The notes beneath the pieces were generated by a model, which had not been told where the DNA came from, ran no database searches, and saw only the letters and a program-made list of their open reading frames with translations. From the NCBI GenBank assembly GCA_022482815.1, contig JAKVOM010000001.1:310001-374000 (forward strand): DNA of 64,000 nucleotides, written 5' to 3'. This document shows positions 9,093 through 44,955 of the stretch, in pieces; the stretch's first letter is position 1; each line of letters begins with the position of its first letter. A program made the position numbers and the translations under genes. The stretch is from Acidaminococcus sp. (lineage in GTDB: Bacteria > Bacillota > Negativicutes > Acidaminococcales > Acidaminococcaceae).

Positions 9093-9140
9093 AAATAAAC
9101 ATGGCCTTTCTCTCAAAAGTTAGGAAGGCCATGCTTATTT
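9093..9140. terminator. Hairpin in the 8874-9312 gap, left boundary of the defence-like operon
   Basis: A roughly 19-bp stem with a G-U pair (AAATAAACATGGCC paired with GGCCATGCTTATTT) and a 10-nt loop. The rest of the 440-bp gap is AT-rich with no coding signal apart from the promoter at 9234. The hairpin separates the MmgE/PrpD start from the next operon and may block read-through. Confidence 0.6.
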
Positions 9141-9233: not shown

Positions 9234-9261
9234 TTTACCTGGAAAAAATAGAAAATATGAT
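9234..9261 (+). promoter_or_regulatory. Candidate promoter of the DUF1998-helicase operon
   Basis: TTTACC (9234-9239), a 16-bp spacer and TATGAT (9256-9261) precede the first gene by about 50 bp. The match is moderate and the region is AT-rich, which weakens the call. Confidence 0.4.
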
Positions 9262-9312: not shown

Positions 9313-10890
9313 ATGCAGCTTACTCATGTGTGTGAATGGAATCAGCAATTAAAAAAGTGGCAAAGAATTTCAATTGAAGATGCTGCTTCAAAATATCCTT
9401 ACGGGGTCTCTGCTAAGAATCATTTGTTTATTTGTGAACTATGTCACCAGAGCGTCACGCTAACCAAAGGTAGTGAATATCGTATTCCATATTTCAGGCA
9501 CACTCGAAACAAAGATGATCAATCATGTCCAGAAAAGTCCTTTAACAACCAATCAGCGAGTAATGAGCTCTTAAATCCTCCCTCATTGCTCCTTCCTTTA
9601 AAAATAAAATTTGAAGGAAGGAAATTTTCTCATTTTGAAATAGGAATTCCCGCCCATTTAACAGATTTTGTTGAAACATCGTTGACTATTAAGTCCGATT
9701 CTGATTCATACGTATATAAAAAAGAACGTCTTTTTGAAGAAGGAATCACATACCTGGATGTTGGTCATTTCATTTCAGATAAATATTTGATTGGCATTCC
9801 CAAAGAAAATATGGAAGCCAAAAGTAAATTTGATGTAGTGATTACTGGAATCGATGGCAAAGGTACCCTGTTCTCAAAGAAAGATGGAAAAAAAATTCCA
9901 GTCGATGGAAATGTATTAATCAATCAGACTTATTACCTATTAGTGCAGGATAAAGGAATCCATAGTAGTTGTGATATCAAGTGGAGTCAAATAGAATCTA
10001 TCACCCAAGAGCATCATATTTGGAACATCTACACTGTTGAAGCTACTTATTATTCTGAAAAAGCTGCCCGATTTTTTTCAAATTATGGGTTTCAACTTTC
10101 TGATTCACTGTCAGAAATGATTCCTTTGTGGCCCTGCGTACCGCTATTTCCATACGGATTTTACTATACACATCCATATCAATACTTTTATTTGTCTGGC
10201 GATTATCTATCTTTTTCAGCATATCCGAATGGTAATTCTACTTCCATCGAATCCATGACAATTTCAAAAAGTGAGAGCCTGGTCAAATTGAACAAGCTTA
10301 CATTATCACAAATTGTAGTGACTGGAAGATATCGAGTCCTTAGGTACCTATATCCGCAATATTTGTACTCACAAAAAACTTTAAAAGATACTATAGCAGA
10401 AGAAGAAATAGCTTTCATTGTCAAAGACGAAGCCGGCAAAGAAATCAAGGAAGGTATTTACCAGTCAGTTCCAAGCCATCTAAAATTAAAATTTACATGT
10501 CGAGTCGATGGCTTTATGGAAGTATTAGACTTTCACGGCAACATTCTCTTCAAGATGTCACTCAAATCTTCAGATAGTGATGTTTTCATCGATGTAGGAA
10601 AGTACCTCCAATTTAATCGGGAAATACAAATTTTTGAAGGACTTGACTGCGTATGGAAAATTAAATTTGCAAGAACTAATGAAAATCATCAAGAGATAGA
10701 TGATTGGTTGTATGATAAATTGAGGGCAACCAGCAGCTCTTACATAGACGTAAACTACATCGTAATGCGACTTTTACACAAATATAGGAACATGCCAAAG
10801 ACACATAAGTGGATTTTGAAGCAGATCAGGACAGGTAAGATATCAAAGAAAGCCTTCGATATATTAAAAGTCCAAAAATACTCAGGTTAG
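9313..10890 (+). CDS. Unknown protein with CoiA-like zinc-ribbon N-terminus (defence-like operon gene 1)
   Basis: A 525-residue protein of unknown function. The N-terminus has Cys41-x2-Cys44, then PYFRH (His63) and Cys72, the pattern of the CoiA-like N-terminal metal-binding module. The remaining ~450 residues are beta-rich with no catalytic motif I recognise, ending in a Lys/Arg-rich helical tail with a possible nucleic-acid role. The ATG at 9313 is chosen because GGAAGG precedes it by 6 nt; an upstream in-frame GTG at 9295 lacks a ribosome site. It is first of four tightly spaced genes, 7 bp before the next, and the codon usage is clearly AT-rich. Role in defence is inferred only from the helicase at the end of the operon. 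Confidence 0.7.
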   Translation: MQLTHVCEWNQQLKKWQRISIEDAASKYPYGVSAKNHLFICELCHQSVTLTKGSEYRIPYFRHTRNKDDQSCPEKSFNNQSASNELLNPPSLLLPLKIKFEGRKFSHFEIGIPAHLTDFVETSLTIKSDSDSYVYKKERLFEEGITYLDVGHFISDKYLIGIPKENMEAKSKFDVVITGIDGKGTLFSKKDGKKIPVDGNVLINQTYYLLVQDKGIHSSCDIKWSQIESITQEHHIWNIYTVEATYYSEKAARFFSNYGFQLSDSLSEMIPLWPCVPLFPYGFYYTHPYQYFYLSGDYLSFSAYPNGNSTSIESMTISKSESLVKLNKLTLSQIVVTGRYRVLRYLYPQYLYSQKTLKDTIAEEEIAFIVKDEAGKEIKEGIYQSVPSHLKLKFTCRVDGFMEVLDFHGNILFKMSLKSSDSDVFIDVGKYLQFNREIQIFEGLDCVWKIKFARTNENHQEIDDWLYDKLRATSSSYIDVNYIVMRLLHKYRNMPKTHKWILKQIRTGKISKKAFDILKVQKYSG

Positions 10891-10897
10891 GAGTGTC

Positions 10898-12868
10898 ATG
10901 ATGTCTGATACTGATTTTAAAAGTAATGAAACGATTGTTTCCATAGGGACCACAGGAGAATTTTTGAGAGATGATACCACAAATAAATGCCATTTTTACC
11001 GTCTTGCCGATATTGAAAACAATACAATCAAATTACCTCCCGATGACTTGTCTTTAAATGAGATTCAAGAATGGAAATTCAGAAAGAGGATCTTTACAGA
11101 TCCAAACGATAAACATTCCAATCCCGATGGACATTTGGGAGTATGGAAATGGAGCGTAGATGAGTATGGACGAGTTAGGTCATACTACGATGAAGGAATT
11201 CACCTCAATGAAATCATTATTTTAAAAAATGTCAATTCTATTCAGGAACTTACGAAGCAGTTATGTAATGGTATTTCTTATTCGAAATACAACGATATAA
11301 CAAAAATTGTTTGCTTTAATTCATACGATGGTAAGTATGAGGGTGTCGTTTGTACATCTAATGATTATTCCATTAAAACAGGAAAGTTAATACTGAATGA
11401 CGATATTTATACACTGCCCTATTATTCCTTTTTATCAGATGCCATCATCCAGGTTGGATCAGAAAAATTCAACAATGATTATTTATTCTACAGATATATA
11501 GAAGATATTGTTTCAAGACAGTATATTCCTACAAGAGAATTGCAGGAATTCATCAAGATGCAGCTAATTGAGATGTGTTCCAACAAACGCATTATTGCAG
11601 GGGAGCTAACAAGAAAAGAAGGGCAAAAGCTAAGAGAGTACATTAAACGAATTCCTAAAGCAAGCTTATATGAAAAAATTAAATCAATATATCGAATCGA
11701 AGAAGATAAAGCTATAGACGCTGTTGATGAAATTCTAGCATCATTAAATTCACAACTAATAATTCCAACTCCGGATACTGAGTTGGTAGACGAAATTATT
11801 GAAACCCATGACGTACTGAGAAATAGCATTGAAAAAAGAATCAAAGAAAAATATCAAGCAAAATTCACACAAGAGGAACAAAATCTAAACGAACTCTCAG
11901 AAAAGGCTAATGCGATATCATCTCAAATCAAAGATCTTGAAAAAAGGAAACAAGATTTGGAAGCCTCTATTTCTGAGGATGAGAAGAAGCAATCAGAACA
12001 AGAAAACAAAATGTCCCAAGATAGTGCAACAAAGTTCTTACCTGCTGAAAGTGCATACCTTTCAACCTTTGAATCTAAATCTAAATTGGCGGGAGAAAAT
12101 AAAACGTGGGATGATGAAGTCCTTCAATTTGCTTCCATGCTTGAAAAAATAGGATTTTGTGATGCCTATTCAGAACCCTTTGCAGCGCTCATTTACAATG
12201 CTGTTTTTAATGTGCAGAAACCGATACTTTTGATAGGTCCTAGAGCTGAGTGTATTGCGGAAGCTTTTTCAAATATTGTCTTTACAAAGCCATCCTATTA
12301 TTTTCCTATACGGCAAGATTTTTTGAACAAGATGAATTCCATTGTATCTTCCTATGAAGGTGTATTTAATATCAGTGGTCTTTTTGAATCTAACATTGCA
12401 GCACATATTGATCAGTTACAATGTGACTTGAAACATGTAATCTTTTTAACTCACCCATTTATTGAAGACCTGACCTTACTTCCAAAAAGCATTAATAATT
12501 ACGTAATCACCTTATATACAGAACCTTTTATCAAATCATGGGAAACTGACATTACTTATGAACGTTTTACAAGAAATAAAAATTTCGAGCCTTTCGAATT
12601 TGAGTCCTCTGAGCAATTCTCAGCAAAGGAATATATTCTTCAAAATAATTCAGGCGTGAATTACTTATTCACTGACGCTTTAAGCAAACTCGTAAAGGGA
12701 ATCTGTAAAATGCGCTACGATTCTAATTTATTATCGATGCTTATGCTAGGGTTATATCTTCCATACTTTTACATGATTGGAAAATCTCAAGACTTGATTG
12801 AAATTATAAATCAGTCAGGAAAAGTATCTAGGGAAACAAAAGAATATATTCAAGGTTTTATAGGTTGA
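10898..12868 (+). CDS. Unknown protein with coiled coil and degenerate P-loop-like region (defence-like operon gene 2)
   Basis: A 656-residue protein of unknown function. Residues about 1-300 are a mixed globular region. A long charged coiled coil follows (about 305-375, rich in E, K, Q and regularly spaced L/I). The C-terminal third then begins like an AAA+ ATPase core: KPILLIGPRAECIAEAF at about 441-457. The strand-loop-helix shape is right, but the Gly-Lys-Ser/Thr of Walker A is replaced by R-A-E-C, so ATP binding is unlikely. A hydrophobic strand, KHVIFLTHPF, sits where a Walker B would be and lacks the acidic pair. This suggests a pseudo-ATPase scaffold or sensor. The start follows GGAG, 7 bp after the previous stop. 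Confidence 0.7.
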   Translation: MMSDTDFKSNETIVSIGTTGEFLRDDTTNKCHFYRLADIENNTIKLPPDDLSLNEIQEWKFRKRIFTDPNDKHSNPDGHLGVWKWSVDEYGRVRSYYDEGIHLNEIIILKNVNSIQELTKQLCNGISYSKYNDITKIVCFNSYDGKYEGVVCTSNDYSIKTGKLILNDDIYTLPYYSFLSDAIIQVGSEKFNNDYLFYRYIEDIVSRQYIPTRELQEFIKMQLIEMCSNKRIIAGELTRKEGQKLREYIKRIPKASLYEKIKSIYRIEEDKAIDAVDEILASLNSQLIIPTPDTELVDEIIETHDVLRNSIEKRIKEKYQAKFTQEEQNLNELSEKANAISSQIKDLEKRKQDLEASISEDEKKQSEQENKMSQDSATKFLPAESAYLSTFESKSKLAGENKTWDDEVLQFASMLEKIGFCDAYSEPFAALIYNAVFNVQKPILLIGPRAECIAEAFSNIVFTKPSYYFPIRQDFLNKMNSIVSSYEGVFNISGLFESNIAAHIDQLQCDLKHVIFLTHPFIEDLTLLPKSINNYVITLYTEPFIKSWETDITYERFTRNKNFEPFEFESSEQFSAKEYILQNNSGVNYLFTDALSKLVKGICKMRYDSNLLSMLMLGLYLPYFYMIGKSQDLIEIINQSGKVSRETKEYIQGFIG

Positions 12869-12872
12869 CATA

Positions 12873-13913
12873 ATGAATGAACATAATTTAATTTACCCCT
12901 TGCTCGAAGATATCGCCCAATTTATGGGCATAAAAAAGGATTCCGAAGAAACGAAAGAAATTTTTATATTTCGCATTCTTTATAGTTATGCAGGATTTTT
13001 AATGCTGCAATCGGTTGCAGACATAAGTGAAGATAGCAATAAAACATCAATTGAGCATATAAAAAGTAGAACTTTCAAAAGTGTGAAAGCCCTGTGCTCT
13101 ATGCTTAATCCAATTTCATCAGACTATAATAGTCCATTTTATGTACTACAACTTATTGATGATTTATACGATACTTACATTAGGAGTGGCTTCATCTACC
13201 ATTCATCCCGCCATGTAGAATTTGCTAAATCAAAGACTATTTCAGCCTACAATCTTATATTCTATCGTGGACAATCCGTAACCACGTCAGCTAATCAATG
13301 GATTGCTTCGGGCAGTGGCTATGTCGGATATAACGAAGCTCCACCCCATAACCTGGAAGATTTAAAATCTGCTTTTTGCCTTCCGAAAGTAACAATAATT
13401 GAAAAATGGCAAACCACCCAGTTGAATGCAAAATGGAGACTTGCCGATTTTCACTCTCGAGTCTCATTTCTTAAAACCCAATATCCTTATTACGGAGGAT
13501 ATTGGGTTAAACGGGCGGATAAGACCGGTACTATTTCTCTTATGAAGACGGAGTCTAATCCATCAGATTACTTTCTCTATCGGTATAAAAAAGGTACTTT
13601 GGAAGTTTCTGACCTCCCGGAATGGGAAAAGGCTGATTTTGGAATTAGGAATCTCATGGTAGCCTGCCTCGCTTCTTCTAAAACCTTGCCCAGTATAGAA
13701 TTTCAAGATTTAGCAACATTGGCTGCAATTAAGCTTGGCTATGTGTTGCCCCCTAGAGAAATGACCTTTTATAAGCTTTATAGTTGGCCTCTTCTTTTTA
13801 ACAATACAAATTCCATTTTTAGGCCACGATTTATGCAAAAAGATGTTTTTACAGTTTTTCAAAGCTTAATGAAAGGTATTGGATATCAATTTAAAGAAGG
13901 AGTTCTTTTATGA
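12873..13913 (+). CDS. Unknown protein (defence-like operon gene 3)
   Basis: A 346-residue protein with no motif I recognise. It is predicted soluble, with an alpha-helical first half and an aromatic-rich second half (YPYYGGYWVKRADKTG). No nuclease, methylase, protease or membrane signature is visible. It begins 4 bp after gene 2 with only a weak ribosome site and overlaps the helicase start by 4 nt (ATGA). Translation is therefore probably coupled to both neighbours, and its product is probably needed in a fixed ratio to the helicase. Best regarded as an accessory subunit of the helicase. Confidence 0.65.
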   Translation: MNEHNLIYPLLEDIAQFMGIKKDSEETKEIFIFRILYSYAGFLMLQSVADISEDSNKTSIEHIKSRTFKSVKALCSMLNPISSDYNSPFYVLQLIDDLYDTYIRSGFIYHSSRHVEFAKSKTISAYNLIFYRGQSVTTSANQWIASGSGYVGYNEAPPHNLEDLKSAFCLPKVTIIEKWQTTQLNAKWRLADFHSRVSFLKTQYPYYGGYWVKRADKTGTISLMKTESNPSDYFLYRYKKGTLEVSDLPEWEKADFGIRNLMVACLASSKTLPSIEFQDLATLAAIKLGYVLPPREMTFYKLYSWPLLFNNTNSIFRPRFMQKDVFTVFQSLMKGIGYQFKEGVLL

Positions 13914-16900
13914 GTTATAGTGCCAGTTATGTTCAAGAACGATTAAAAAACGAACTAATAAATTACATTAAATCACAATATTTTGGCAAGAATCCTCTTT
14001 TGATGCAAGCAATTAAAGATAAGTTGGGAGCCGAAGGTCTCCTTTTCCAGAAGCCTTATATTGAGTCATCACCGGCCTATAAAATTGATAAAAACGGTTT
14101 TGAAAAATCAGGACTGGATCCGTGGCTAAAGGATTTTTTTCTAAGACTCTCCAAGGCAAACCTTGGTATTTACCCTTCTCCTTACACCCACCAGATTAAA
14201 GCTCTGGAAGAATTCATAAATGGAAAGGATATCTTTGTAGCTACAGGTACCGGGTCTGGTAAAACAGAATGTTTTATGTGGCCGATGCTCGCCAAAATGG
14301 CTAACGAAGCCAAGAATCATGCTGATTCCTGGGAAAAAAGAGGCATTCGTACTATTATTCTTTATCCTATGAATGCATTGGTATCAGATCAAGTCAGCCG
14401 ATTGAGAAAATTATTGGGGGATCATGACGAGAAGTTTGCTGCAATATTCCGTAATGTTTGTGGTGCTCAGAGTCGCCGTCCTCAATTTGGAATGTATACA
14501 GGGCGTACTCCCTACCCGGGAGAGAATAATACAAATGAAAATAAAGCCTTAGCAAAAACTTTATCCCATTTCCTCGCAGATTCCGATGATGCTTCTAATC
14601 AGTATTTAGAATGGCTGCAAAAAGAAGGAAAAATGCCATCCAAGCATAATTTAACTGATTTTATTGATAAACTTAAGCAGAATCAACACTATACGAATCC
14701 AGAAGACGCAGAACTGATTACACGTTTTGAGATGCAGTCATTATCTCCCGATATTTTAATCACAAACTACTCTATGTTGGAATACATGCTGATCCGCCCT
14801 ATTGAAGGCAAAATCTGGAAAGACACAAAATCTTGGCTCAATTTCTCTCCATCAAATAGGCTCTTGTTCATCATCGATGAGGCACATATGTACCGAGGCT
14901 CTGCCGGTGGAGAAGTTGCACTACTGCTCCGGCGCCTTTTCCATAAGCTTGGCATAGGACGCAATCGTGTTCAATTTATTCTCACTACAGCAAGTATGCC
15001 TCAAAAAAACAAGGAAGATATAACAAGCATAAAAACGTTTTTTAATAATCTTACTGCATCGGAATCATCAGAATTTGTCTATATAACAGGGGATCGGAAA
15101 GATTCCAGCAAATTTGCATCTCAAGAAATACCGAAGGAAAAATTTCTCGCCTTTGATTTAGAAGACTTTGATAGCTCTGAAAAAAATAAGTTCAATGCAT
15201 TAAAAACATTTTGGGACGGTATCAGCGGAAACCACCAATCTTTCACAACACTTCAGGACATAAGTTCCTGGATGTATGATAATTTAACTACGTTTAAACC
15301 TTTTAATAAATTACTGACCTTATGCCGTGGATCAGCAGTTTCCTTGAATGAATTAGCACAAAATATTTTTCCTGATTATAGTCATGAAGAACAATTAAAG
15401 GCTGTGAACACCTTGCTGACAATCGCGCCGCTAGCCAAGAATGAGAAAGGATTAATCCTATTTCCTGCAAGGATGCACATGCTTTTCCGTGGATTAAAGG
15501 GTGTCTATGCTTGTGTCAATGAAAATTGTCCTCACCATGTATCTAAAGATAGGTTCACTCTAGGAGAAGTTCTACTATCCGATGATAAACTAATTTGTCC
15601 TACTTGCCACAGTCCAGTGTATGAACTCTACAACGATAGACGATGTGGTGCCTTATTTTATAAGGGGTATATCTTAGAAAATGACCTAGACAAGAAACGA
15701 GCTTATTTATGGCATTATCCAGGACAACTTATCGACCAAAGAATGAAAGCAATATATCTTTTTATTCCTCCGGAAGGATATAACCGGCGAGCAAAAAAGA
15801 ATCAAGCATATCAGATTAAACCTTGCTATATGGATTGTAAAAGTGGATATCTTTACTTCGATGATTCCAAAGCGGGATGTGAAGGGTATAGAAAATTATA
15901 TTATTCTGAGTATGTAGAAAATGGAAAACCTAAGGAATTCGTCTTTAAGACGTGCCCTCATTGTGAACACGCACTTATGCATACACAGTTCACCTCATTT
16001 CAGACAAAGGGCAATCAAGCATTTAACAACTTAATCGAAACACAGTTTGATTTAGAATCGCCGGTACCTGGAAAATCTCAAGACAGATATCCTAATGAGG
16101 GACGTAAAGTATTGCTTTTCTCAGACAGCCGACAGCGTGCTGCAAAATTAGCACGAGACATGTCTGAAACATCTGAAGCTGAAGTCATTCGTCAACTATT
16201 TATACTGGCAATTAAAATGATGCAGACGAATAAAGATTTATCCTTGGATGATTTATATGGATTTTTCTGTCTCGTATGTAATTCCAAACACCTTAATTTA
16301 TTTTCAGGTAAAGAAAATAGCGATTTTAAAAGGCATGTTGAATATGAGCAAATAAATAAAGAACGGTGTAAAAAAAGGAACAAGGATTACGTTCCCAAAA
16401 AGAAATCAAATAATGCTATTTTCACATTCCAATGCTATTTATTGCGGCTTTTTAGTGGTGGATATAATACCTTTTATGACACGGCCATGGCCTGGCTGAT
16501 GCCTCAAGAGTCTATCTGTGATGATACTGTGTTTGATATACATGAAGTTATCCCAGGCATAACAGAAAGTGATTTCATTGAGTTATTTAATGCCTGGCTC
16601 CTAAAAATTTTTGATTCATCCACTGCTTTAGGGCATACCATCAGTAACGAATGCCGTTTGGAAATCCGTCCCAGTTATGGAAAAGAATACGGACTTAAGG
16701 AAGACTGGGAGTTCAGTAATGTCATTAAGTCCCTTATGGGTTGGAAAAAGAATTCTGAAGAGCAAAAGAAAATCAGGGATATTTTTACTCGTAATTTCTT
16801 AGAAGAAGGCCCTGGTGGGAAATTATTTGTCAAGCTTGATGCCGTGACCCCTTATTTTGACCCGAATCATATTTGGTACCGATGCAAACAGTGCGCTGAA

Positions 16901-19135
16901 ATAACCCCATACCGGCTAAAGGGTTGTTGCCCATTTTGTGGTTCTGACCAAATCCATGAACTGGATGCTACTGATAAGGAAGCGCTTAAGTTTTGGAATA
17001 AACCAATCGAAAGGGCCCTCAATGGCGAAAAAATTCAACTAATCAATACAGAAGAACATACAGCCCAGCTTTCCCATAAAGATCAACGTGACCGGCTGTG
17101 GTCAAAAACTGAAGAATACGAGCTGAGGTTTCAAGATCTAATAAAAGAGGATGAAAAACCCGTAGACATCTTAAGCAGCACAACCACCATGGAAGTAGGA
17201 ATTGATATTGGTTCACTGGTTGCTGTAGGTCTTCGCAATATTCCGCCCATGAGAGAAAATTATCAACAAAGAGCCGGACGCGCTGGACGAAGAGGGGCAA
17301 GCTTGTCTACAATTGTAACTTATTGTGAAGACGGGCCTCATGATACAATGTATTTTGAAAACCCAGAGCCCATGTTTAGAGGCGATCCCAGACGGCCCTG
17401 GATTGATATTATGAGTGAAAAATTGATTTATCGTCATTTAAATTTAATTGCGTTAGAAGATTTTTGCTTTACTAAAGGTCAAAGTTTGGATAAGCTCCCT
17501 ACCTCTGAGTTTATAAACTCTTATCTTGAAGAATTTTTCTCCTTCTTAAATATTTTTTCACTCCCCAAAAATTCCATATTACTTCCAAGAGGGTTCAATT
17601 TTAATATCACTAAATTTAGGAATGAGCTAAAAGAAGAAGTGACCGAACTTGAAACTCACCTAAAGAAACACCCTGAACTATACGATCAGAACATTGGACA
17701 AAATAGGTCTTCAAAAAAATCATTACTTGACGCACTGTATGAAATGGGTACCATTCCCACCTACATGTTCCCCAAGAATGTAGTTAGTACATATATAAGC
17801 GATGCAAACGGTAAAGTTAATTACGAAGTCAGCAGAGGATTAGATGTTGCTATTAATGAATATGCACCAGGCCGCTCCGTTGTAGTTGATAAACAAACCT
17901 ATCAAATTGGAGGTCTCTACTATCCAGGCAGTGAATACAGACCTAAATCCTATACCAGTCCGGCTAAAGCTTTTCTAGAGGACAACAATTATGTAAAAGG
18001 CATCAAAAGATGTCCAGATTGTGGATGGTTTGGATTAGCAAGTGACGATTATAAAAAGTGTCCATTTTGCGGGAATCCTAACTTGGTTGATGATTTACCG
18101 ATGGTTAGACCTTGGGGATTTGCACCGAAAAATGGTGAACCTATCCATGTTGCCCAATTGGAAGAAGAATATTCCGCTGTAGGACAGCCCATTTATTCGA
18201 CTGTACCCGATGAAAATGATGTAAAAAAAGTTCCCGGAATAAAATGGATGAACTCTGCTGTTCGTCAGAATCAAAGAATCATTATGATTAATAAAGGAGT
18301 AGACAATCAAAGTGGTTTCATGATTTGTGAAGACTGCGGAGCTATTATGCCTGGAAATGACGAAAAAGCCTTAAAAAATGTAAATAGGCCTTACCATATC
18401 AATAAAAATCGTCCCTGCCACCATATGTCAACAAAGAACATTGATCTCGGATTTGATTTTATTACGGATATGTTGGTATTAGAAATTCCATTAAATCCAT
18501 CCCTTATTAATGTTGATAGAAAACGGAACCTGTGGTTAAATCGGGCGGCCCAATCACTTTCTGAAGCAATCAGATTAGTTGCCTGCCAGGAACTAGATGT
18601 TGAATTTACAGAATTAGTCACCGGATATAGAGTACGAAATACAAATAATTCAACTTCTATTGATCTCTATTTATATGATGCCCTTTCAAGTGGAGCAGGT
18701 TATGCAATTGAGGTAGGAGCTAATATTGCTCATTTAATTGACCTGGTAGAAAAAAAGCTTGAATCCTGCACCTGCGAATCTGCCTGCTCAAAGTGTCTAA
18801 AGCATTATAGAAATCAGCAGATACATGGCCTTTTGGATCGTTTTGCTGCTTTGGATTTACTGCGGTGGGCAAAATATGGGAAATTACCAGATGCAATCCC
18901 TATTAAAAGGCAGCTAGAATTATTAGACCCCGTTAAAAATATCTTGGAGGATGCTAAGATAACGCTGGAAATTAAAGGCAATAAATTATATCGTGTGGAC
19001 CATGATACAAAGAAAGAGCTTATTGTATATCCTGCAATGTGGAAAAAGCCAAAAAATCCAGAAATTGTATATGTAAGTGATATTTATTTGAAATACGCAA
19101 AGCCGTATGCAGTAGATATGATTTCCAATCAGTGA
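13910..19135 (+). CDS. Large DEAH helicase with zinc ribbons and C-terminal DUF1998/MZB-like region (DruE/DrmA-like)
   Basis: A 1741-residue superfamily 2 helicase. Q-motif-like PYTHQ is at 91-95, Walker A ATGTGSGKTE at 111-120, and motif Ia around YPMNALVSDQVSRLR. The DEAH box is at 323-326 (IIDEAHMYRG). The second RecA lobe has SSTTTMEVGIDIG near 1090 and motif VI QQRAGRAGRRG near 1120. Several CxxC zinc-ribbon pairs are interspersed (near 535-585, 990-1010, 1366-1390 and 1470). The C-terminus (about 1519-1660) has the DUF1998 hallmark with four clustered cysteines, CTCESACSKC. This layout occurs in YprA/MrfA-type helicases and in the Druantia (DruE) and DISARM (DrmA/B) defence helicases; size and operon context favour the defence type. 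It is last of four coupled genes. Confidence 0.9.
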   Translation: MSYSASYVQERLKNELINYIKSQYFGKNPLLMQAIKDKLGAEGLLFQKPYIESSPAYKIDKNGFEKSGLDPWLKDFFLRLSKANLGIYPSPYTHQIKALEEFINGKDIFVATGTGSGKTECFMWPMLAKMANEAKNHADSWEKRGIRTIILYPMNALVSDQVSRLRKLLGDHDEKFAAIFRNVCGAQSRRPQFGMYTGRTPYPGENNTNENKALAKTLSHFLADSDDASNQYLEWLQKEGKMPSKHNLTDFIDKLKQNQHYTNPEDAELITRFEMQSLSPDILITNYSMLEYMLIRPIEGKIWKDTKSWLNFSPSNRLLFIIDEAHMYRGSAGGEVALLLRRLFHKLGIGRNRVQFILTTASMPQKNKEDITSIKTFFNNLTASESSEFVYITGDRKDSSKFASQEIPKEKFLAFDLEDFDSSEKNKFNALKTFWDGISGNHQSFTTLQDISSWMYDNLTTFKPFNKLLTLCRGSAVSLNELAQNIFPDYSHEEQLKAVNTLLTIAPLAKNEKGLILFPARMHMLFRGLKGVYACVNENCPHHVSKDRFTLGEVLLSDDKLICPTCHSPVYELYNDRRCGALFYKGYILENDLDKKRAYLWHYPGQLIDQRMKAIYLFIPPEGYNRRAKKNQAYQIKPCYMDCKSGYLYFDDSKAGCEGYRKLYYSEYVENGKPKEFVFKTCPHCEHALMHTQFTSFQTKGNQAFNNLIETQFDLESPVPGKSQDRYPNEGRKVLLFSDSRQRAAKLARDMSETSEAEVIRQLFILAIKMMQTNKDLSLDDLYGFFCLVCNSKHLNLFSGKENSDFKRHVEYEQINKERCKKRNKDYVPKKKSNNAIFTFQCYLLRLFSGGYNTFYDTAMAWLMPQESICDDTVFDIHEVIPGITESDFIELFNAWLLKIFDSSTALGHTISNECRLEIRPSYGKEYGLKEDWEFSNVIKSLMGWKKNSEEQKKIRDIFTRNFLEEGPGGKLFVKLDAVTPYFDPNHIWYRCKQCAEITPYRLKGCCPFCGSDQIHELDATDKEALKFWNKPIERALNGEKIQLINTEEHTAQLSHKDQRDRLWSKTEEYELRFQDLIKEDEKPVDILSSTTTMEVGIDIGSLVAVGLRNIPPMRENYQQRAGRAGRRGASLSTIVTYCEDGPHDTMYFENPEPMFRGDPRRPWIDIMSEKLIYRHLNLIALEDFCFTKGQSLDKLPTSEFINSYLEEFFSFLNIFSLPKNSILLPRGFNFNITKFRNELKEEVTELETHLKKHPELYDQNIGQNRSSKKSLLDALYEMGTIPTYMFPKNVVSTYISDANGKVNYEVSRGLDVAINEYAPGRSVVVDKQTYQIGGLYYPGSEYRPKSYTSPAKAFLEDNNYVKGIKRCPDCGWFGLASDDYKKCPFCGNPNLVDDLPMVRPWGFAPKNGEPIHVAQLEEEYSAVGQPIYSTVPDENDVKKVPGIKWMNSAVRQNQRIIMINKGVDNQSGFMICEDCGAIMPGNDEKALKNVNRPYHINKNRPCHHMSTKNIDLGFDFITDMLVLEIPLNPSLINVDRKRNLWLNRAAQSLSEAIRLVACQELDVEFTELVTGYRVRNTNNSTSIDLYLYDALSSGAGYAIEVGANIAHLIDLVEKKLESCTCESACSKCLKHYRNQQIHGLLDRFAALDLLRWAKYGKLPDAIPIKRQLELLDPVKNILEDAKITLEIKGNKLYRVDHDTKKELIVYPAMWKKPKNPEIVYVSDIYLKYAKPYAVDMISNQ

Positions 19136-19283: not shown

Positions 19284-19327
19284 AAAGAGCTATGAAGAAA
19301 TAGACAATCTCCTCTTCATAGCTCTTT
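19284..19327. terminator. Terminator after the helicase operon
   Basis: A perfect 15-bp stem (AAAGAGCTATGAAGA with its complement at 19313-19327) with a 14-nt loop and a T-rich tail. It lies in the 303-bp gap between the helicase stop and the convergent ftcD stop and can serve both. Nothing else is evident in the gap. Confidence 0.85.
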
Positions 19328-20386: not shown

Positions 20387-21845
20387 GGTTCTTCACGGAA
20401 ATTTGTGGACTAGAAGACATTTGACTATTGAAAAAGGACATTAACTCCTCCAAAATATAAGCGACGAAACCATACCTTGGGAGGAGAAAATGTCCTTTAC
20501 TAATTACACTATTCAAAATAATGCAGAATGTCAAGATGTCTTTTACAATGTCTTCATGCCGGAAGACCCTTTTGATGACAGCCAGGAGATTGTTATTTGC
20601 AGTGAAAAGAAATATACCGACTTCCGTTGTCCTAAATGTGGTCAGAAAATGTATTCTTACGAGCCATTTTCTACCTACTTGAAAAGTTTTCCTGCGTATC
20701 CTGAGCATACCAGGATGATCCGCTTTGAAGGGCATCGCTTCCGTTGCTCCTGCTGCCATGCAACCATCACTGAGCCTATTCCCTTTAAATATCCCGGGAC
20801 TCGCATTACCATGAGGGCTTCCCTTTGGATTGAGACGCTGCTTCGTAATGGAATCCCTGCCAATGCAATTGCCAAGATGTCAGGAATTCACTGGAGCACG
20901 ATTCGCTATGTCCACAAACAGCTCATGGATGAATCTCTCGATAAATATGAAATGGAATTGGAGCTGACCTCTTACAAGCCCCGTTTTCTGGCCATCGATG
21001 AGTTTGCTATCCATAAGGGACACACTTATGCCACTTGCGTCATGGATTTAGCGACAGGTTATATTCTCTGGGTCGGCAGAGGTCGGGCGATAGCTGACTT
21101 CGAGCATTTCTTCAAGGAATATGATCAGACAAAGCTGACAGAGGTCAAGGCAGTCGCCATGGATATGAACGCTTCCTACAACAAGCTGGTACAAGAACAT
21201 CTGCCGCAAGCTAAGGTCGTGTATGATCGTTACCACATGCAGGCTCAATTCGGGAAGGAAGTATTAGGTGTAGTAAGACTTGATGAGGCCAGAATGCATA
21301 GGGATAAAGCCAGAAACATGCAAGAAGCATTAAAAGACGCAAGCAATGAAGACAAGCCGGCTTTGAAAGAGCAGATATTCAATGAAAAGAAGAGCTACCA
21401 CAAATTGAAGAAAGTCCGCTGGCCGTTACTCACCAATGAAGATAGGCTGAATCCTAAGAACAAAGAAGCGTTGCAGGCCATCTTTGCAGAGCACGAGGAT
21501 CTGGCAATATGTTATTCCATGAAGGAAGAGATGGTAGCCCTCTATGAATTAAGGGACTATGACAAGGCTCTTGCAGGATGGAAGCGCTGGTTTAAAGCTG
21601 CACTAGGCAGCGGGATTCCGGCCCTGGTTAGGTTTGCTAAGATTAAGCTGCCAAGGATAGACGGTCTGGTGAACCATGCCCTGTACCCGATAAACACAGG
21701 GAAGCTTGAGGGTTTCAACAACAAGATTAAAGTGGCCAAAAGAAGAGCGTACGGATACAGAGATGATGAGTACTTTTTCACGTTAATTCGCTACCTCTCA
21801 ATTCCGACCGTAAGAGGTATACTCCCGAAAAAAACGTGAAGAACC
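20387..21845 (+). mobile_element. ISL3-family insertion sequence, copy 1
   Basis: A 1459-bp element with termini GGTTCTTCACG and CGTGAAGAACC, inverted over at least 11 bp. It is flanked by perfect 8-bp target duplications TTAAATTT (20379-20386 and 21846-21853). It inserted in the last codons of fchA, opposite to the hut operon direction. It differs from copies 2 and 3, which look identical to each other. Confidence 0.95.
20490..21839 (+). CDS. ISL3-family transposase (copy 1)
   Basis: A 449-residue DDE transposase. The N-terminal zinc finger (Cys47, Cys50, Cys86, Cys88/89) is followed by a helix-turn-helix (ANAIAKMSGIHWSTIRYVHKQ). The DDE core is Asp170 in AIDEFAIHKGH, Asp225 in VAMDMN and Glu407 in KLEGFNN. 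A GGGAGG site lies before the start. It appears intact. It differs from the other two copies at 12 residues, nine of them between 275 and 305. Confidence 0.95.
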   Translation: MSFTNYTIQNNAECQDVFYNVFMPEDPFDDSQEIVICSEKKYTDFRCPKCGQKMYSYEPFSTYLKSFPAYPEHTRMIRFEGHRFRCSCCHATITEPIPFKYPGTRITMRASLWIETLLRNGIPANAIAKMSGIHWSTIRYVHKQLMDESLDKYEMELELTSYKPRFLAIDEFAIHKGHTYATCVMDLATGYILWVGRGRAIADFEHFFKEYDQTKLTEVKAVAMDMNASYNKLVQEHLPQAKVVYDRYHMQAQFGKEVLGVVRLDEARMHRDKARNMQEALKDASNEDKPALKEQIFNEKKSYHKLKKVRWPLLTNEDRLNPKNKEALQAIFAEHEDLAICYSMKEEMVALYELRDYDKALAGWKRWFKAALGSGIPALVRFAKIKLPRIDGLVNHALYPINTGKLEGFNNKIKVAKRRAYGYRDDEYFFTLIRYLSIPTVRGILPKKT

Positions 21846-27063: not shown

Positions 27064-28522
27064 GGTTCTTCACGGAAATTTGTGGACTAAAAGACATTTG
27101 ACTATTGAAAAAGGACATTAACTCCTCCAAAATATAATCGTCGAAACCATACCTTGGGAGGAGAAAATGTCCTTTACTAATTACACTATTCAAAATAATG
27201 CAGAATGTCAAGATGTCTTTTACAATGTCTTCATGCCGGAAGACCCTTTTGATGACAGCCAGGAGATTGTTATTTGCAGTGAAAAGAAATATACCGACTT
27301 CCGTTGTCCTAAATGTGGTCAGAAAATGTATTCTTACGAGCCATTTTCCACCTACTTGAAAAGTTTTCCTGCGTATCCTGAGCATACCAGGATGATCCGC
27401 TTTGAAGGGCATCGCTTCCGTTGCTCCTGCTGCCATGCAACCATCACTGAGCCTATTCCCTTTAAATATCCAGGAACTCGCATTACCATGAGAGCTTCTC
27501 TCTGGATTGAGACGCTGCTTCGTAATGGAATCCCTGCCAATGCAATTGCCAAGATGTCAGGAATTCACTGGAGCACGGTTCGCTATGTCCACAAACAGCT
27601 CATGGACGAATCTCTCGATAAATATGAAATGGAATTGGAGCTGACCTCTTACAAGCCCCGTTTCCTGGCCATCGATGAGTTTGCTATCCATAAGGGACAC
27701 ACCTATGCCACTTGCGTCATGGATTTAGCGACAGGTTATATTCTCTGGGTTGGCAGAGGTCGGGCGATAGCTGACTTCGAGCATTTCTTCAAGGAATATG
27801 ATCAGACAAAGCTGACAGAGGTCAAGGCAGTCGCCATGGATATGAACGCTTCCTACAACAAGCTGGTACAAGAACATCTGCCGCAAGCTAAGGTCGTGTA
27901 TGATCGTTACCACATGCAGGCTCAATTCGGGAAGGAAGTATTAGGTGTAGTAAGACTTGATGAGGCCAGAATGCATAGGGATAAAGCCAACGACATGCAA
28001 GAAGCATTAAAAGACGCAAGTGCTGAAGACAAGCCGGCTTTGAAAGAGCGGATATCCGAGGAAAAGAAGAACTACCGCACATTGAAGAAAGTCCGCTGGC
28101 CGTTACTCACCAATGAAGATAGGCTGAATCCTAAGAGCAAAGAAGCGTTGCAGGCCATCTTTGCAGAGCACGAGGATCTGGCAATATGTTATTCCATGAA
28201 GGAAGAGATGGTAGCCCTCTATGAATTAAGGGACTATGACAAGGCTCTTGCAGGATGGAAGCGCTGGTTTAAAGCTGCACTAGGCAGCGGGATTCCGGCC
28301 CTGGTTAGGTTTGCTAAGATTAAGCTGCCAAGGATAGACGGTCTGGTGAACCATGCCCTGTACCCGATAAACACAGGGAAGCTTGAAGGCTTCAACAACA
28401 AGATTAAAGTGGCCAAAAGAAGAGCGTACGGATACAGAGATGATGAGTACTTTTTCACGTTAATTCGCTACCTCTCAATTCCGACCGTAAGGGGTATACT
28501 CCCGAAAAAACCGTGAAGAACC
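27064..28522 (+). mobile_element. ISL3-family insertion sequence, copy 2
   Basis: A 1459-bp element with the same termini as copy 1 and perfect 8-bp target duplications ATTTTTTC (27056-27063 and 28523-28530). It lies inside the SARP-type regulator gene in the same orientation. By inspection it matches copy 3. Confidence 0.95.
27167..28516 (+). CDS. ISL3-family transposase (copy 2)
   Basis: A 449-residue intact DDE transposase (Asp170, Asp225, Glu407) identical in protein sequence to copy 3. Its stop codon overlaps a GTG start of the downstream regulator fragment as GTGA, so translation of that fragment may be coupled to the transposase. Confidence 0.95.
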   Translation: MSFTNYTIQNNAECQDVFYNVFMPEDPFDDSQEIVICSEKKYTDFRCPKCGQKMYSYEPFSTYLKSFPAYPEHTRMIRFEGHRFRCSCCHATITEPIPFKYPGTRITMRASLWIETLLRNGIPANAIAKMSGIHWSTVRYVHKQLMDESLDKYEMELELTSYKPRFLAIDEFAIHKGHTYATCVMDLATGYILWVGRGRAIADFEHFFKEYDQTKLTEVKAVAMDMNASYNKLVQEHLPQAKVVYDRYHMQAQFGKEVLGVVRLDEARMHRDKANDMQEALKDASAEDKPALKERISEEKKNYRTLKKVRWPLLTNEDRLNPKSKEALQAIFAEHEDLAICYSMKEEMVALYELRDYDKALAGWKRWFKAALGSGIPALVRFAKIKLPRIDGLVNHALYPINTGKLEGFNNKIKVAKRRAYGYRDDEYFFTLIRYLSIPTVRGILPKKP

Positions 28523-31026
28523 ATTTTTTCTATATAAAAGATTGCCCTTTATTCGATGAATGGGTAGATCAAGTAAGATTGGACATCCAGAACTATTTCA
28601 TAGATTGCGTTCACGAAAAATTAAAATCGATAAATACTAAAGATAATGCAGAAGATTTCAATAGAATTGGAAATTTACTAATTGATTACAAGATTTTCGA
28701 TGATGAAGTAATGAAACAACTCCTAGAGCACATTATGAACGCAGGATACCCTGCCACAGCTAAAAAACTCCTTAATAATTACAAAAAAATGATAGAAGAG
28801 GAATACGAAGATGAGCCCGATGGTCGACTATCAGCTATAGTTAATGAAAAAAGCCTATTAAGAATAAACCGAAGAGAACAAAATAGTAAATTTCACCTCC
28901 CTGTATCCTTTTTTTGCAGAGATAATGAGATTTCTTTGATTACGGATGACTTTCGCAATTTTATGGATGGAAATAACTATTCATCATTATTAATCACCGG
29001 AGAAGCGGGGGTCGGAAAATCAGCACTTCTCTACCAAGTCAGCAGCGCCATTAATCCAAAATCAGCTGTCGTCCTCAGATATCAATGTGTCCAATCTGAA
29101 GTTGATTTATATTTACGTCCTTGGAGTGATTTATTAGCTCAAATAGAATTATTTATTCTCAATAAAACAACAGAAATCACGCATAAGTCAACAGATATTA
29201 ATATTCCATCCTCGCTTTTTGCCACTCAGTTTGAGCAAAATATTAAGATTGCATTTGACAGGCTTCGTGAATTCATAGGAGACAGCAAAAAAATCATTCT
29301 GGTTATTGATGATATTCAATGGATGGATTACGCTAGTATACGCTTATTGGCGAATATCATAACATGGGGAAAGAATAATTGCCTTTTGGCAATTTTAGCA
29401 GCCCGAAATGAGTTATCCAGTGAAAGTAATAAAATAATAAATTCATTATATAAACGAGATCTTTTAACGGAGATACCTTTGAGTCGATTTACATATGAAG
29501 AGAGCAAAAAAATCATCGCTACCTATCATCCAGCTCTCGCCAAAGAGAAAAAAAACGTGGATTCTATTTATGACAATACTGCTGGCAATGCCCTTTTTCT
29601 CCTAGAATTCTTAAAAGACTACAATCCAGATAACCCTAATCCAGGTCTTACACGTAAGACCGTAATTATGATACAAAATCGTCTTTTAGAATTGACTACT
29701 GAAGAGCAAAATATTCTGAATATTATTTCTTTATTTCCCCGTTTTGCTACGTTGAGAGATCTACAGATTTTTGATCATAGGTCCTTGAATTTAATTTTAA
29801 TGGATATAGAGCATTTATTGTATTGTCAATTAATTTGTTTCAATAATACTTATTTCAATAACGGCTACGCATTCTCTCACCAACTTATCAGGAACTATAT
29901 TTATAATCAATTACTTCCAGACAAAAAAATTATAATGCATTCAATTATAGCTGAAGAATATGAAAAAGATTATAGTACAAACCATGCGAGTCGCCTGCTG
30001 CCTAGTTTAATACATCACTTTACTGGCGCAAACAACCTCTATAAAGCATATAATTACCAGCTCGAATACTTCTACAACATATTTACAATTCAGAATGAAA
30101 TATATCCTTCAACGCTAAATACAGAGAGTTGTGCTTCTATTCGTCTACAGCCTCTCTCATCCTCTGATGCTCTTATTTCTTTAGCAAAAAAAATTCGGGC
30201 TCTGGATGCGTCAGTACCAGATGCTGATTTGTTAAAAATGAAAGTCGAATTTTTAATAGGTCGCTACGATTTATATTCCGGATCTTTTGACCACGGTCTA
30301 AAAAATATTAGTAACAGTATTTCTATAGCGCTTCAGCGAAAAGATAGCGAGTACCTACTTAAGAATTATTTACAAATGATTTTTCACGCTATTCAGGTCA
30401 ATAATCTAAAAATGTTTAATGATTATCTCACTTTATGCGAAGAACTTATACAAACCAATACATATGATAAAGCTATTATCTTTACAATCAAGAGATTAAG
30501 GGGTTTATTTTTGATGAAAAATTATAGGTATAAAGAGGCAGAAGAAATTTTCGTTCAAATAACAACCTCCCTCTCCGAGGAAGATATTGATGAAGATAAT
30601 ACTAATATTGCTCTTGCTGCATGTTCAAATTACATAGGGGAATGCAAGCAGATGACCGATCAACCAAAGGCTGCCCTTTCATATTTTTTTAAAGCTATAG
30701 AATATACAAAAAATGAGCCTTCCTTTAGTGGCGTTGCCATATTTTTATTGAACGTCGGCCAACTTTATTACAGAGAAAATGACTTTCCGAGAGCTGAAAA
30801 ATATATTGACAAGGCTTTGGAATATACTGATAAGACAGATGCTCTTTGGGGTAAAGCAAAAGCAAATGCCTATAAAGCTCTCCTGGAAATTCAGCAAGAA
30901 CACTGGGATAGTGCAAGGAAATTTTATGATAGGGCTTCTAGTTTTGCCAACATAGGAAAAAATCCTCTAACACTTACATTGCTTGAGGAAGTGAATAAAA
31001 AACTACAAACACATCAAGCAAGCTAG
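28513..31026 (+). pseudogene. SARP/STAND regulator, BTAD-ATPase-TPR part (interrupted by IS)
   Basis: An 837-codon frame of which codons from 28523 on are native and the first few come from the IS right end. It carries the rest of the bacterial transcriptional activation domain (about 1-110), a STAND-type ATPase with Walker A GEAGVGKS at 163-170 and Walker B ILVIDDIQWMD near 260, and a C-terminal TPR-like helical array. This matches large signal-transducing ATPase regulators of the MalT/LAL kind. Without the N-terminal DNA-binding domain on the other side of the IS it cannot act as the original regulator. A GTG at 28513 could allow translation. Confidence 0.88.
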
Positions 31027-43496: not shown

Positions 43497-44955
43497 GGTT
43501 CTTCACGGAAATTTGTGGACTAAAAGACATTTGACTATTGAAAAAGGACATTAACTCCTCCAAAATATAATCGTCGAAACCATACCTTGGGAGGAGAAAA
43601 TGTCCTTTACTAATTACACTATTCAAAATAATGCAGAATGTCAAGATGTCTTTTACAATGTCTTCATGCCGGAAGACCCTTTTGATGACAGCCAGGAGAT
43701 TGTTATTTGCAGTGAAAAGAAATATACCGACTTCCGTTGTCCTAAATGTGGTCAGAAAATGTATTCTTACGAGCCATTTTCCACCTACTTGAAAAGTTTT
43801 CCTGCGTATCCTGAGCATACCAGGATGATCCGCTTTGAAGGGCATCGCTTCCGTTGCTCCTGCTGCCATGCAACCATCACTGAGCCTATTCCCTTTAAAT
43901 ATCCAGGAACTCGCATTACCATGAGAGCTTCTCTCTGGATTGAGACGCTGCTTCGTAATGGAATCCCTGCCAATGCAATTGCCAAGATGTCAGGAATTCA
44001 CTGGAGCACGGTTCGCTATGTCCACAAACAGCTCATGGACGAATCTCTCGATAAATATGAAATGGAATTGGAGCTGACCTCTTACAAGCCCCGTTTCCTG
44101 GCCATCGATGAGTTTGCTATCCATAAGGGACACACCTATGCCACTTGCGTCATGGATTTAGCGACAGGTTATATTCTCTGGGTTGGCAGAGGTCGGGCGA
44201 TAGCTGACTTCGAGCATTTCTTCAAGGAATATGATCAGACAAAGCTGACAGAGGTCAAGGCAGTCGCCATGGATATGAACGCTTCCTACAACAAGCTGGT
44301 ACAAGAACATCTGCCGCAAGCTAAGGTCGTGTATGATCGTTACCACATGCAGGCTCAATTCGGGAAGGAAGTATTAGGTGTAGTAAGACTTGATGAGGCC
44401 AGAATGCATAGGGATAAAGCCAACGACATGCAAGAAGCATTAAAAGACGCAAGTGCTGAAGACAAGCCGGCTTTGAAAGAGCGGATATCCGAGGAAAAGA
44501 AGAACTACCGCACATTGAAGAAAGTCCGCTGGCCGTTACTCACCAATGAAGATAGGCTGAATCCTAAGAGCAAAGAAGCGTTGCAGGCCATCTTTGCAGA
44601 GCACGAGGATCTGGCAATATGTTATTCCATGAAGGAAGAGATGGTAGCCCTCTATGAATTAAGGGACTATGACAAGGCTCTTGCAGGATGGAAGCGCTGG
44701 TTTAAAGCTGCACTAGGCAGCGGGATTCCGGCCCTGGTTAGGTTTGCTAAGATTAAGCTGCCAAGGATAGACGGTCTGGTGAACCATGCCCTGTACCCGA
44801 TAAACACAGGGAAGCTTGAAGGCTTCAACAACAAGATTAAAGTGGCCAAAAGAAGAGCGTACGGATACAGAGATGATGAGTACTTTTTCACGTTAATTCG
44901 CTACCTCTCAATTCCGACCGTAAGGGGTATACTCCCGAAAAAACCGTGAAGAACC
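43497..44955 (+). mobile_element. ISL3-family insertion sequence, copy 3
   Basis: A 1459-bp element with the same termini as the other copies and perfect 8-bp duplications TAATTTTT (43489-43496 and 44956-44963). It inserted in intergenic DNA upstream of the UroD-family gene. By inspection it matches copy 2 base for base in the parts compared. Confidence 0.95.
43600..44949 (+). CDS. ISL3-family transposase (copy 3)
   Basis: A 449-residue transposase identical in protein sequence to copy 2, with intact zinc finger and DDE residues (Asp170, Asp225, Glu407). Presumably active, since two identical copies with intact duplications imply recent movement. Confidence 0.95.
   Translation: MSFTNYTIQNNAECQDVFYNVFMPEDPFDDSQEIVICSEKKYTDFRCPKCGQKMYSYEPFSTYLKSFPAYPEHTRMIRFEGHRFRCSCCHATITEPIPFKYPGTRITMRASLWIETLLRNGIPANAIAKMSGIHWSTVRYVHKQLMDESLDKYEMELELTSYKPRFLAIDEFAIHKGHTYATCVMDLATGYILWVGRGRAIADFEHFFKEYDQTKLTEVKAVAMDMNASYNKLVQEHLPQAKVVYDRYHMQAQFGKEVLGVVRLDEARMHRDKANDMQEALKDASAEDKPALKERISEEKKNYRTLKKVRWPLLTNEDRLNPKSKEALQAIFAEHEDLAICYSMKEEMVALYELRDYDKALAGWKRWFKAALGSGIPALVRFAKIKLPRIDGLVNHALYPINTGKLEGFNNKIKVAKRRAYGYRDDEYFFTLIRYLSIPTVRGILPKKP

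Follow-up and report, generated by a model that had tools for sequence, protein, structure and literature searches.

A Druantia type I-related druB-druC-druD-druE operon from a DruA-less clade in an Acidaminococcus genome

The described systems closest to the locus reported here are Druantia types I and III, ARMADA and DISARM, and the repair helicase MrfA/YprA. DISARM is composed of separate DrmA and DrmB proteins plus DrmC, a PLD protein. MrfA/YprA is not known to have B, C or D partners. Druantia type I is defined as a five-gene set in one report (PMC13316683), and incomplete type I sets in Ralstonia strains are mentioned in another (PMC7251935). Further, type I DruE is reported to have a RecA1 insertion and a C-terminal Vsr nuclease that is predicted to be inactivated (PMC12458937). 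The loci of E. coli FREC5 (L112), with a complete annotated druABCDE set, and P. putida pKF715A (L111) served as type I references.

The window, that is, the whole stretch of 64,000 nucleotides that was analysed, lies in a genome of Acidaminococcus sp. consisting of a single contig of 3.06 Mb (G000). Four co-directional ORFs with gaps of 7 and 4 bp, followed by a 4-nt overlap, were found when the ORF coordinates were re-derived (Table 1), as claimed in an earlier note on this DNA, which had also delimited the operon (9313 to 19135) correctly. The ATG at 9313 was considered the better start of ORF1 because GGAAGG, recognised by eye, lies 6 nt before it. The operon, a relative of Druantia type I without DruA, is of an ordinary kind, though its gene content is slightly unusual. 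Sequence comparison places it almost certainly in a DruA-less clade of druB-druC-druD-druE operons related to type I, and a role in anti-phage defence, suggested by the family, is very probable. The best explanation of the locus as a whole, which we regard as likely, is a complete-looking anti-phage druBCDE operon of this DruA-less clade.

Table 1. Features of the operon in the window and modification or restriction genes next to related operons.
Feature	Locus	Coordinates	Strand	Remarks
Inverted repeat upstream of operon	Window	9093..9140	.	Arms of 19 nt, 89% complementary
Candidate promoter TTTACC-16-TATGAT	Window	9234..9261	+	9/12 matches
ORF1, druB-like	Window	9313..10890	+	ATG 9313, 525 aa; GTG 9295 opens the same frame
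ORF2, druC-like	Window	10898..12868	+	656 aa
ORF3, druD-like	Window	12873..13913	+	346 aa
ORF4, druE	Window	13910..19135	+	YprA-family helicase, 1741 aa
Inverted repeat downstream, candidate terminator	Window	19284..19327	.	Perfect arms of 15 nt, T-rich stretch after
D12-class adenine methyltransferase after druE	L018	15536..16375		Assigned by Pfam
D12-class adenine methyltransferase after druE	L019	17086..17928		
D12-class adenine methyltransferase after druE	L022	15824..16663		
RM genes upstream of druB	L078, L079, L083, L087, L088, L090, L091, L093, L094, L095, L096, L098, L020 (=L081)			

ORF4 matched the PADLOC model DruE1 (PDLC00013) with 1757 bits across residues 3-1739, vs 636 and 617 bits for DruE2 models, 585 bits for DruE4 and 542 bits for DruE3. 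The DruE of E. coli also scored best on DruE1 (2465 bits), and an alignment of the two proteins, 1840 columns long, shows 31% identity. In five aligned DruE proteins including that of the window, the Walker A, DEAH and QRAGRAGR motifs and four cysteines of the MrfA/DUF1998 zinc domain were invariant. The earlier note had described a Druantia-related operon with a DEAH helicase carrying a DUF1998-type zinc domain; DEAD, Helicase_C and MrfA/DUF1998 domains were all found, and the DruE1 match over the full length bears out the relationship. Judged by its sequence, ORF4 is a full-length type I DruE.

Other systems share parts of this helicase. Druantia type III (DruH-DruE) has the YprA-family DruE motor in common with the window, but the three partners here are different and DruE3 ranked below DruE1; no DruH model was present among the PADLOC matches listed at E<=1 for any of these partners. 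ARMADA and DISARM (PMC12458937) likewise possess a YprA-family helicase with a DUF1998 zinc domain, whereas the four window proteins include no BrxHII helicase, PglX methyltransferase or PLD nuclease, and the helicase is not split. In contrast to DISARM, helicase and DUF1998 parts are fused in one protein, which matched DrmA at 1.1e-11 vs an E-value of 0 for DruE1, and no PLD domain was detected.

Among PDB sequences, the DruE profile gave its best matches with 9tu7 and 9wae, both large helicases. YprA (MrfA, 6znp), which shares the helicase core and the MZB zinc domain and comprises 751 aa in the PDB entry vs 1741 aa in the window, was one of three sequences matched at E<=1e-10 (4.6e-22). This match would agree with a DNA-repair operon built around a YprA/MrfA-type helicase and having no defence function. 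However, the match to DruE1 is far stronger, the occurrence of the operon is patchy and its relatives adjoin defence genes, all of which make a repair operon extremely improbable.

Profiles of the three partner families were iterated from the window proteins, with relatives gathered via DruE, and were compared with 17 proteins from four DruE-bearing reference loci, a small set to which the following E-values relate. The cognate proteins of E. coli and P. putida came first in the B, C, D and E tests, with E-values of 7.6e-13 and 7.8e-13 for DruB, 3.8e-8 and 9.7e-11 for DruC, and 1.5e-9 and 8.4e-5 for DruD, respectively, while the best non-cognate E-values in this set were 0.021 (B), 1.9 (C), 0.037 (D) and 0.81 (E). 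The profile scores behind the DruB and DruC assignments were modest (38 and 22-31 bits). Profile-profile comparison with DruB, DruC and DruD gave probabilities of 96, 92 and 92%, and identity to the E. coli proteins in the profile alignments was 14-19%.

In the PADLOC run on the operon, DruE1 and DruD1 were matched (the window DruD reached PDLC00008 at 1.2e-7), but DruB1 and DruC1 (PDLC00006) were approached at E-values of 0.027 and 0.037 only. At E<=0.01, models of DruB1 matched 21, 16 and 11 of the 73 DruB family members. For DruC1, 48 of 75 family members were scanned, with 18 matches to PDLC00006 and 5 to another model, counts that are blurred because the coiled coil also draws models of LmuB, another coiled-coil protein (19/48 vs 18/48). 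PDLC00008 matched 80 of the 81 DruD family members at the same threshold, and this family has therefore been partly captured before. The DruB1 model PDLC00003 had no match in 369 gammaproteobacterial genomes, a zero that is uninformative since the model is too narrow, having missed a genome among them (G395) that carries a BCDE locus (L053).

The CoiA-like zinc module that had been proposed for ORF1 was supported by the zinc ligands C47, C50, H69 and C78 (C-C-H-C, numbered from GTG 9295), conserved in 73/73 aligned relatives including the window protein, though the latter fell under the Pfam cut-offs for CoiA_N (8.8e-4) and DUF7830 (1.3e-5); E. coli DruB lies over the cut-off for CoiA_N (1.9e-8). 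In the predicted structure of DruB (pLDDT 86.8), residues 272-358 matched filamin Ig domains (Z 7.3, rmsd 2.8, 78 aligned residues), and Foldseek and VIA-align returned common Ig-like folds only, with 7.3 as the best Z. DruB is thus predicted to comprise a CoiA_N-type zinc module and, behind it, beta-sandwich domains of Ig-like type, with a small helical region at the C-terminus, and it was read as a possible scaffold because of this succession of zinc module and Ig-like domains. For ORF2, domain scans and coiled-coil matches of the DruC profile to PDB sequences agree with the coiled coil described earlier, and a canonical Walker A motif, which the C-terminal part of the window protein lacks, was found in none of 48 relatives. 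The model of DruD, predicted with confidence (pLDDT 92.5), showed no clear structural match: the best was to a ROQ RNA-binding domain (Z 5.0, rmsd 4.9, 118 aligned residues), and there was no Foldseek match at E<=0.001. No nuclease domain exceeded the Pfam cut-off in the four window proteins.

On the evidence of these profiles, ORF1 to ORF3 are divergent versions of the Druantia type I proteins DruB, DruC and DruD, the assignment of DruC being the least secure. The operon had been put forward as a candidate undescribed defence system having only the helicase in common with Druantia and carrying a new accessory set. The failure of window DruB and DruC to reach the PADLOC models, together with the low identity in the profile alignments, speaks for such a system. 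It is nevertheless highly improbable, and largely contradicted, given that all three partners match the cognate DruB, DruC and DruD profiles in the same order; since the partners are homologous to DruB-DruD, the inference of a new accessory set was wrong, and all four proteins match Druantia type I, though DruA is missing. Of the type I features, DruE, DruB, DruC, DruD and the one-strand B-C-D-E order are present in the window and DruA is absent. The E. coli and P. putida systems contain the same B, C, D and E homologues in the same order, and the 4-nt druD/druE overlap recurs in E. coli, but these systems have DruA and the window DruE belongs to a separate supported branch.

In the window's genome, DruA was detected neither with Pfam PF14236 nor with PADLOC PDLC00002. 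The first PF14236 search of this genome is by itself no proof of absence, its controls having also been silent; the models do work, PF14236 matching E. coli DruA as well as one genome of related loci and PDLC00002 finding DruA in 10 of 398 genomes of the phylum. PF14236 matched none of 11 DruE1-bearing genomes (that of the window and 10 others) and one of 49 genomes of related loci, drawn from 80 loci. In that one genome, the DruA frame (1205 aa) lies on a contig 82,883 bases long, whereas druBCDE (locus L058) is on a different contig, of 46,952 bases. Three DruA protein queries found no counterpart in 91 loci, the window included, some of which end at contig ends. Across the phylum, DruA was found at E<=1e-40 at 11 places in 10 of 398 genomes, and druBCDE lay beside it in one of the 11 stretches fetched around DruA (L149), three of which were short (4.1, 4.3 and 8.2 kb) and could hide more druBCDE. 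This locus (G1116:C3, 3931-16417), from the same phylum, is a druBCDE of canonical type; its DruA gene lies beyond a 391-aa gene and is read from the other strand. As DruA was searched for and not found, the operon of the window is not a canonical type I member.

The 91 loci consisted of the window, ten longer loci of the same class (L018-L027) and the best 80 of 558 confirmed relatives (L029-L108), with four duplicates. DruE was found in all 91, DruB in 78, DruC in 82 and DruD in 84, many of the misses lying at contig ends, and the order B-C-D-E with small gaps or overlaps was kept in nearly all loci. In a tree of 91 DruE proteins, the 86 rows of the window-type set grouped together with an SH-aLRT support of 100; outside this group were the DruA-bearing E. 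coli/P. putida pair, L026 and two remote relatives that have DruA or DUF4338 genes in their vicinity. This tree was obtained by a quick search with SH-aLRT and no bootstrap, contains some long branches and a few rows from contigs too short to show B-D, and its outgroup is not separated from the rest by any single branch. The second tree, with 38 rows, was computed under a mixture model without L026 and with L149; it gave the BCDE group a support of 100 and joined L149 to E. coli and P. putida with a support of 96. The loci were picked by similarity to the window and the census is biased accordingly; the deep split is independent of this.

These data bear on whether the operon could be a decayed Druantia type I that has lost DruA and no longer works. 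The five-gene definition (PMC13316683), of which DruA is missing here, and the incomplete sets of Ralstonia (PMC7251935) would fit such decay. Against it, the four ORFs are intact, the DruE motifs are kept, and no DruA remnant was found upstream or elsewhere in the window, where the best tblastn match (E 0.020) lies inside druE; moreover, a single clade unites the 86 DruE rows that have no DruA next to them, and most loci retain B, C and D. Decay is therefore very improbable, and the absence of DruA is read as an inherited state, not a fresh loss in this strain, because the arrangement is common to the whole clade. No report of a DruA-less type I clade was found in the literature searched, which does not establish absence from print.

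In both trees, the window was sister to L049 (Oscillospiraceae). Members of the clade were mainly Bacillota, and also Pseudomonadota, Planctomycetota, Thermodesulfobacteriota, Bacteroidota and one methanogen. In the window's family, DruE1 was matched at E<=1e-50 in one of 59 genomes, the window's own, and in its class at E<=1e-100 in 14 of 380 genomes, its own included, at least one of which (L026) carries another kind of DruE. The patchy occurrence and the wide range of phyla suggest horizontal spread. Distant DruE relatives were present in six plasmid records (E<=1e-80), and the DruE of P. putida as query matched one phage record (E<=1e-50). Further, 63 of 5426 E. coli genomes matched a 3967-base segment of P. 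putida druE over most of its length.

Some relatives showed deviating arrangements. In Anaerobiospirillum (L053:16261-22236), the first system is succeeded in tandem by another druB-druC-druD set and the beginning of a druE, where the locus ends. In L023 (G321), druE consists of two frames separated by a 350-aa ORF, possibly as the result of an insertion. In L056 (10001-20619), druE on one strand is faced by an inverted druD-druC-druB set on the other.

Restriction-modification (RM) genes were located next to druBCDE in another part of the tree. A second large branch has 23 rows, and in 13 of them druB is immediately preceded by a gene for a C5 methyltransferase, a type II endonuclease or both (Table 1), ending within 50 bp of druB on the same strand and in one case overlapping it by 4 nt. 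The endonucleases are of two exchangeable kinds. There were EcoO109I-type genes in five distinct loci, Eco47II-type genes in seven, two of which are cut by a contig end with the methyltransferase out of view, and a methyltransferase alone in one; one example per type was classified by Pfam and the others by similarity to that example. One of the loci (L081) is from Selenomonas montiformis, a member of the Negativicutes. In a small branch, three of four rows had a D12-class adenine methyltransferase gene 3-13 bp after druE. A Druantia-RM operon was not reported in the literature searched, which is no proof that such operons are unpublished.

The GC content of the operon was 36.4% vs 43.4% for the rest of the window. 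Its AT-rich composition had been described as unlike that of the neighbours, which holds mainly on the left side, where the two neighbours have about 50% GC, and not on the right, where the FTCD gene has 40%. Both flanking inverted repeats were confirmed. The promoter and terminator, however, stay candidates, because scans of the window were not above chance overall (45 promoters vs 40.7 +/- 6.5 and 8 terminators vs 6.7 +/- 2.6 by chance) and neither flanking hairpin was among the terminator matches.

The left neighbours are metabolic genes (lactate racemase, MmgE/PrpD), and on the right are histidine degradation genes with an ISL3-type insertion sequence among them. The MmgE/PrpD gene has relatives of 34-51% identity in five of eight other genomes of the genus, and the FTCD gene, of which the window's genome holds a second copy, has relatives of 48-51% identity in all eight. 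No syntenic site representing an empty insertion site was found among these eight genomes. The operon was probably acquired horizontally. The window contains three ISL3-family insertion sequence genes (20490-21839, 27167-28516 and 43600-44949), the second and third each 97.9% identical to the first, which sits between two histidine-degradation genes. In addition, an AT-rich gene for an 837-aa AAA/TPR (STAND-like) protein (28513-31026) begins inside the end of an insertion-sequence gene; it had no PADLOC match at 1e-10.

Beside 57 loci of the window's clade, 94 nearest ORFs (120-1500 aa) matched 32 PADLOC families at E<=1e-10. Among the matches listed were mad2 (six ORFs), mad3 (three ORFs), and AbiEii, ThsB, LmuA, DpdF and restriction enzymes (one each). 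By comparison, 44 ORFs from the window and the preceding 10 kb gave no PADLOC match at 1e-10, a rough, unmatched control from one region of one genome. The relatives thus adjoin defence genes; by the PADLOC scan, the operon in the window is outside any defence island.

A detailed mechanism can be put forward tentatively, at somewhat less than even confidence. The model for it is Druantia type III, the DruH of which was not detected here. DruE would act as an ATP-driven motor, loading onto invading DNA at single-stranded tails or replication intermediates. DruB, with its zinc module and Ig-like domains, and the coiled-coil DruC may together build a scaffold by which the motor is held or licensed on foreign DNA, and DruD may be a further specificity or clamp subunit. 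Replication of phage DNA would be blocked by the DruE complex licensed by B, C and D. Because no nuclease domain was recognised, the effect would probably be to block or unwind DNA, or to pass it to other nucleases, and not to cut it. In smegmatis, phage DNA circularisation and replication are reported to be stopped (PMC13316683).

It is also conceivable, though rather doubtful, that druBCDE is a self-sufficient modular core acting on DNA ends or single-stranded tails, with DruA as one of several exchangeable front modules. The window type would then have no front module, the sister branch RM genes, the small branch a D12 gene after druE, and the E. coli type DruA. DNA ends would be supplied by the coupled endonuclease in the RM branch; in the branch of the window, the core would use the natural ends of phage DNA or its replication intermediates.

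A broad clade, mostly of Bacillota, that has B, C, D and E and no adjacent DruA falls outside the five-gene definition of type I. Annotation by the PADLOC models of DruB and DruC may miss or mislabel such operons, since the window DruB and DruC miss these models. The DruA-less clade makes the question of the core subunits testable, and the RM-coupled branch is a natural clue to the kind of DNA on which the DruE machine acts.
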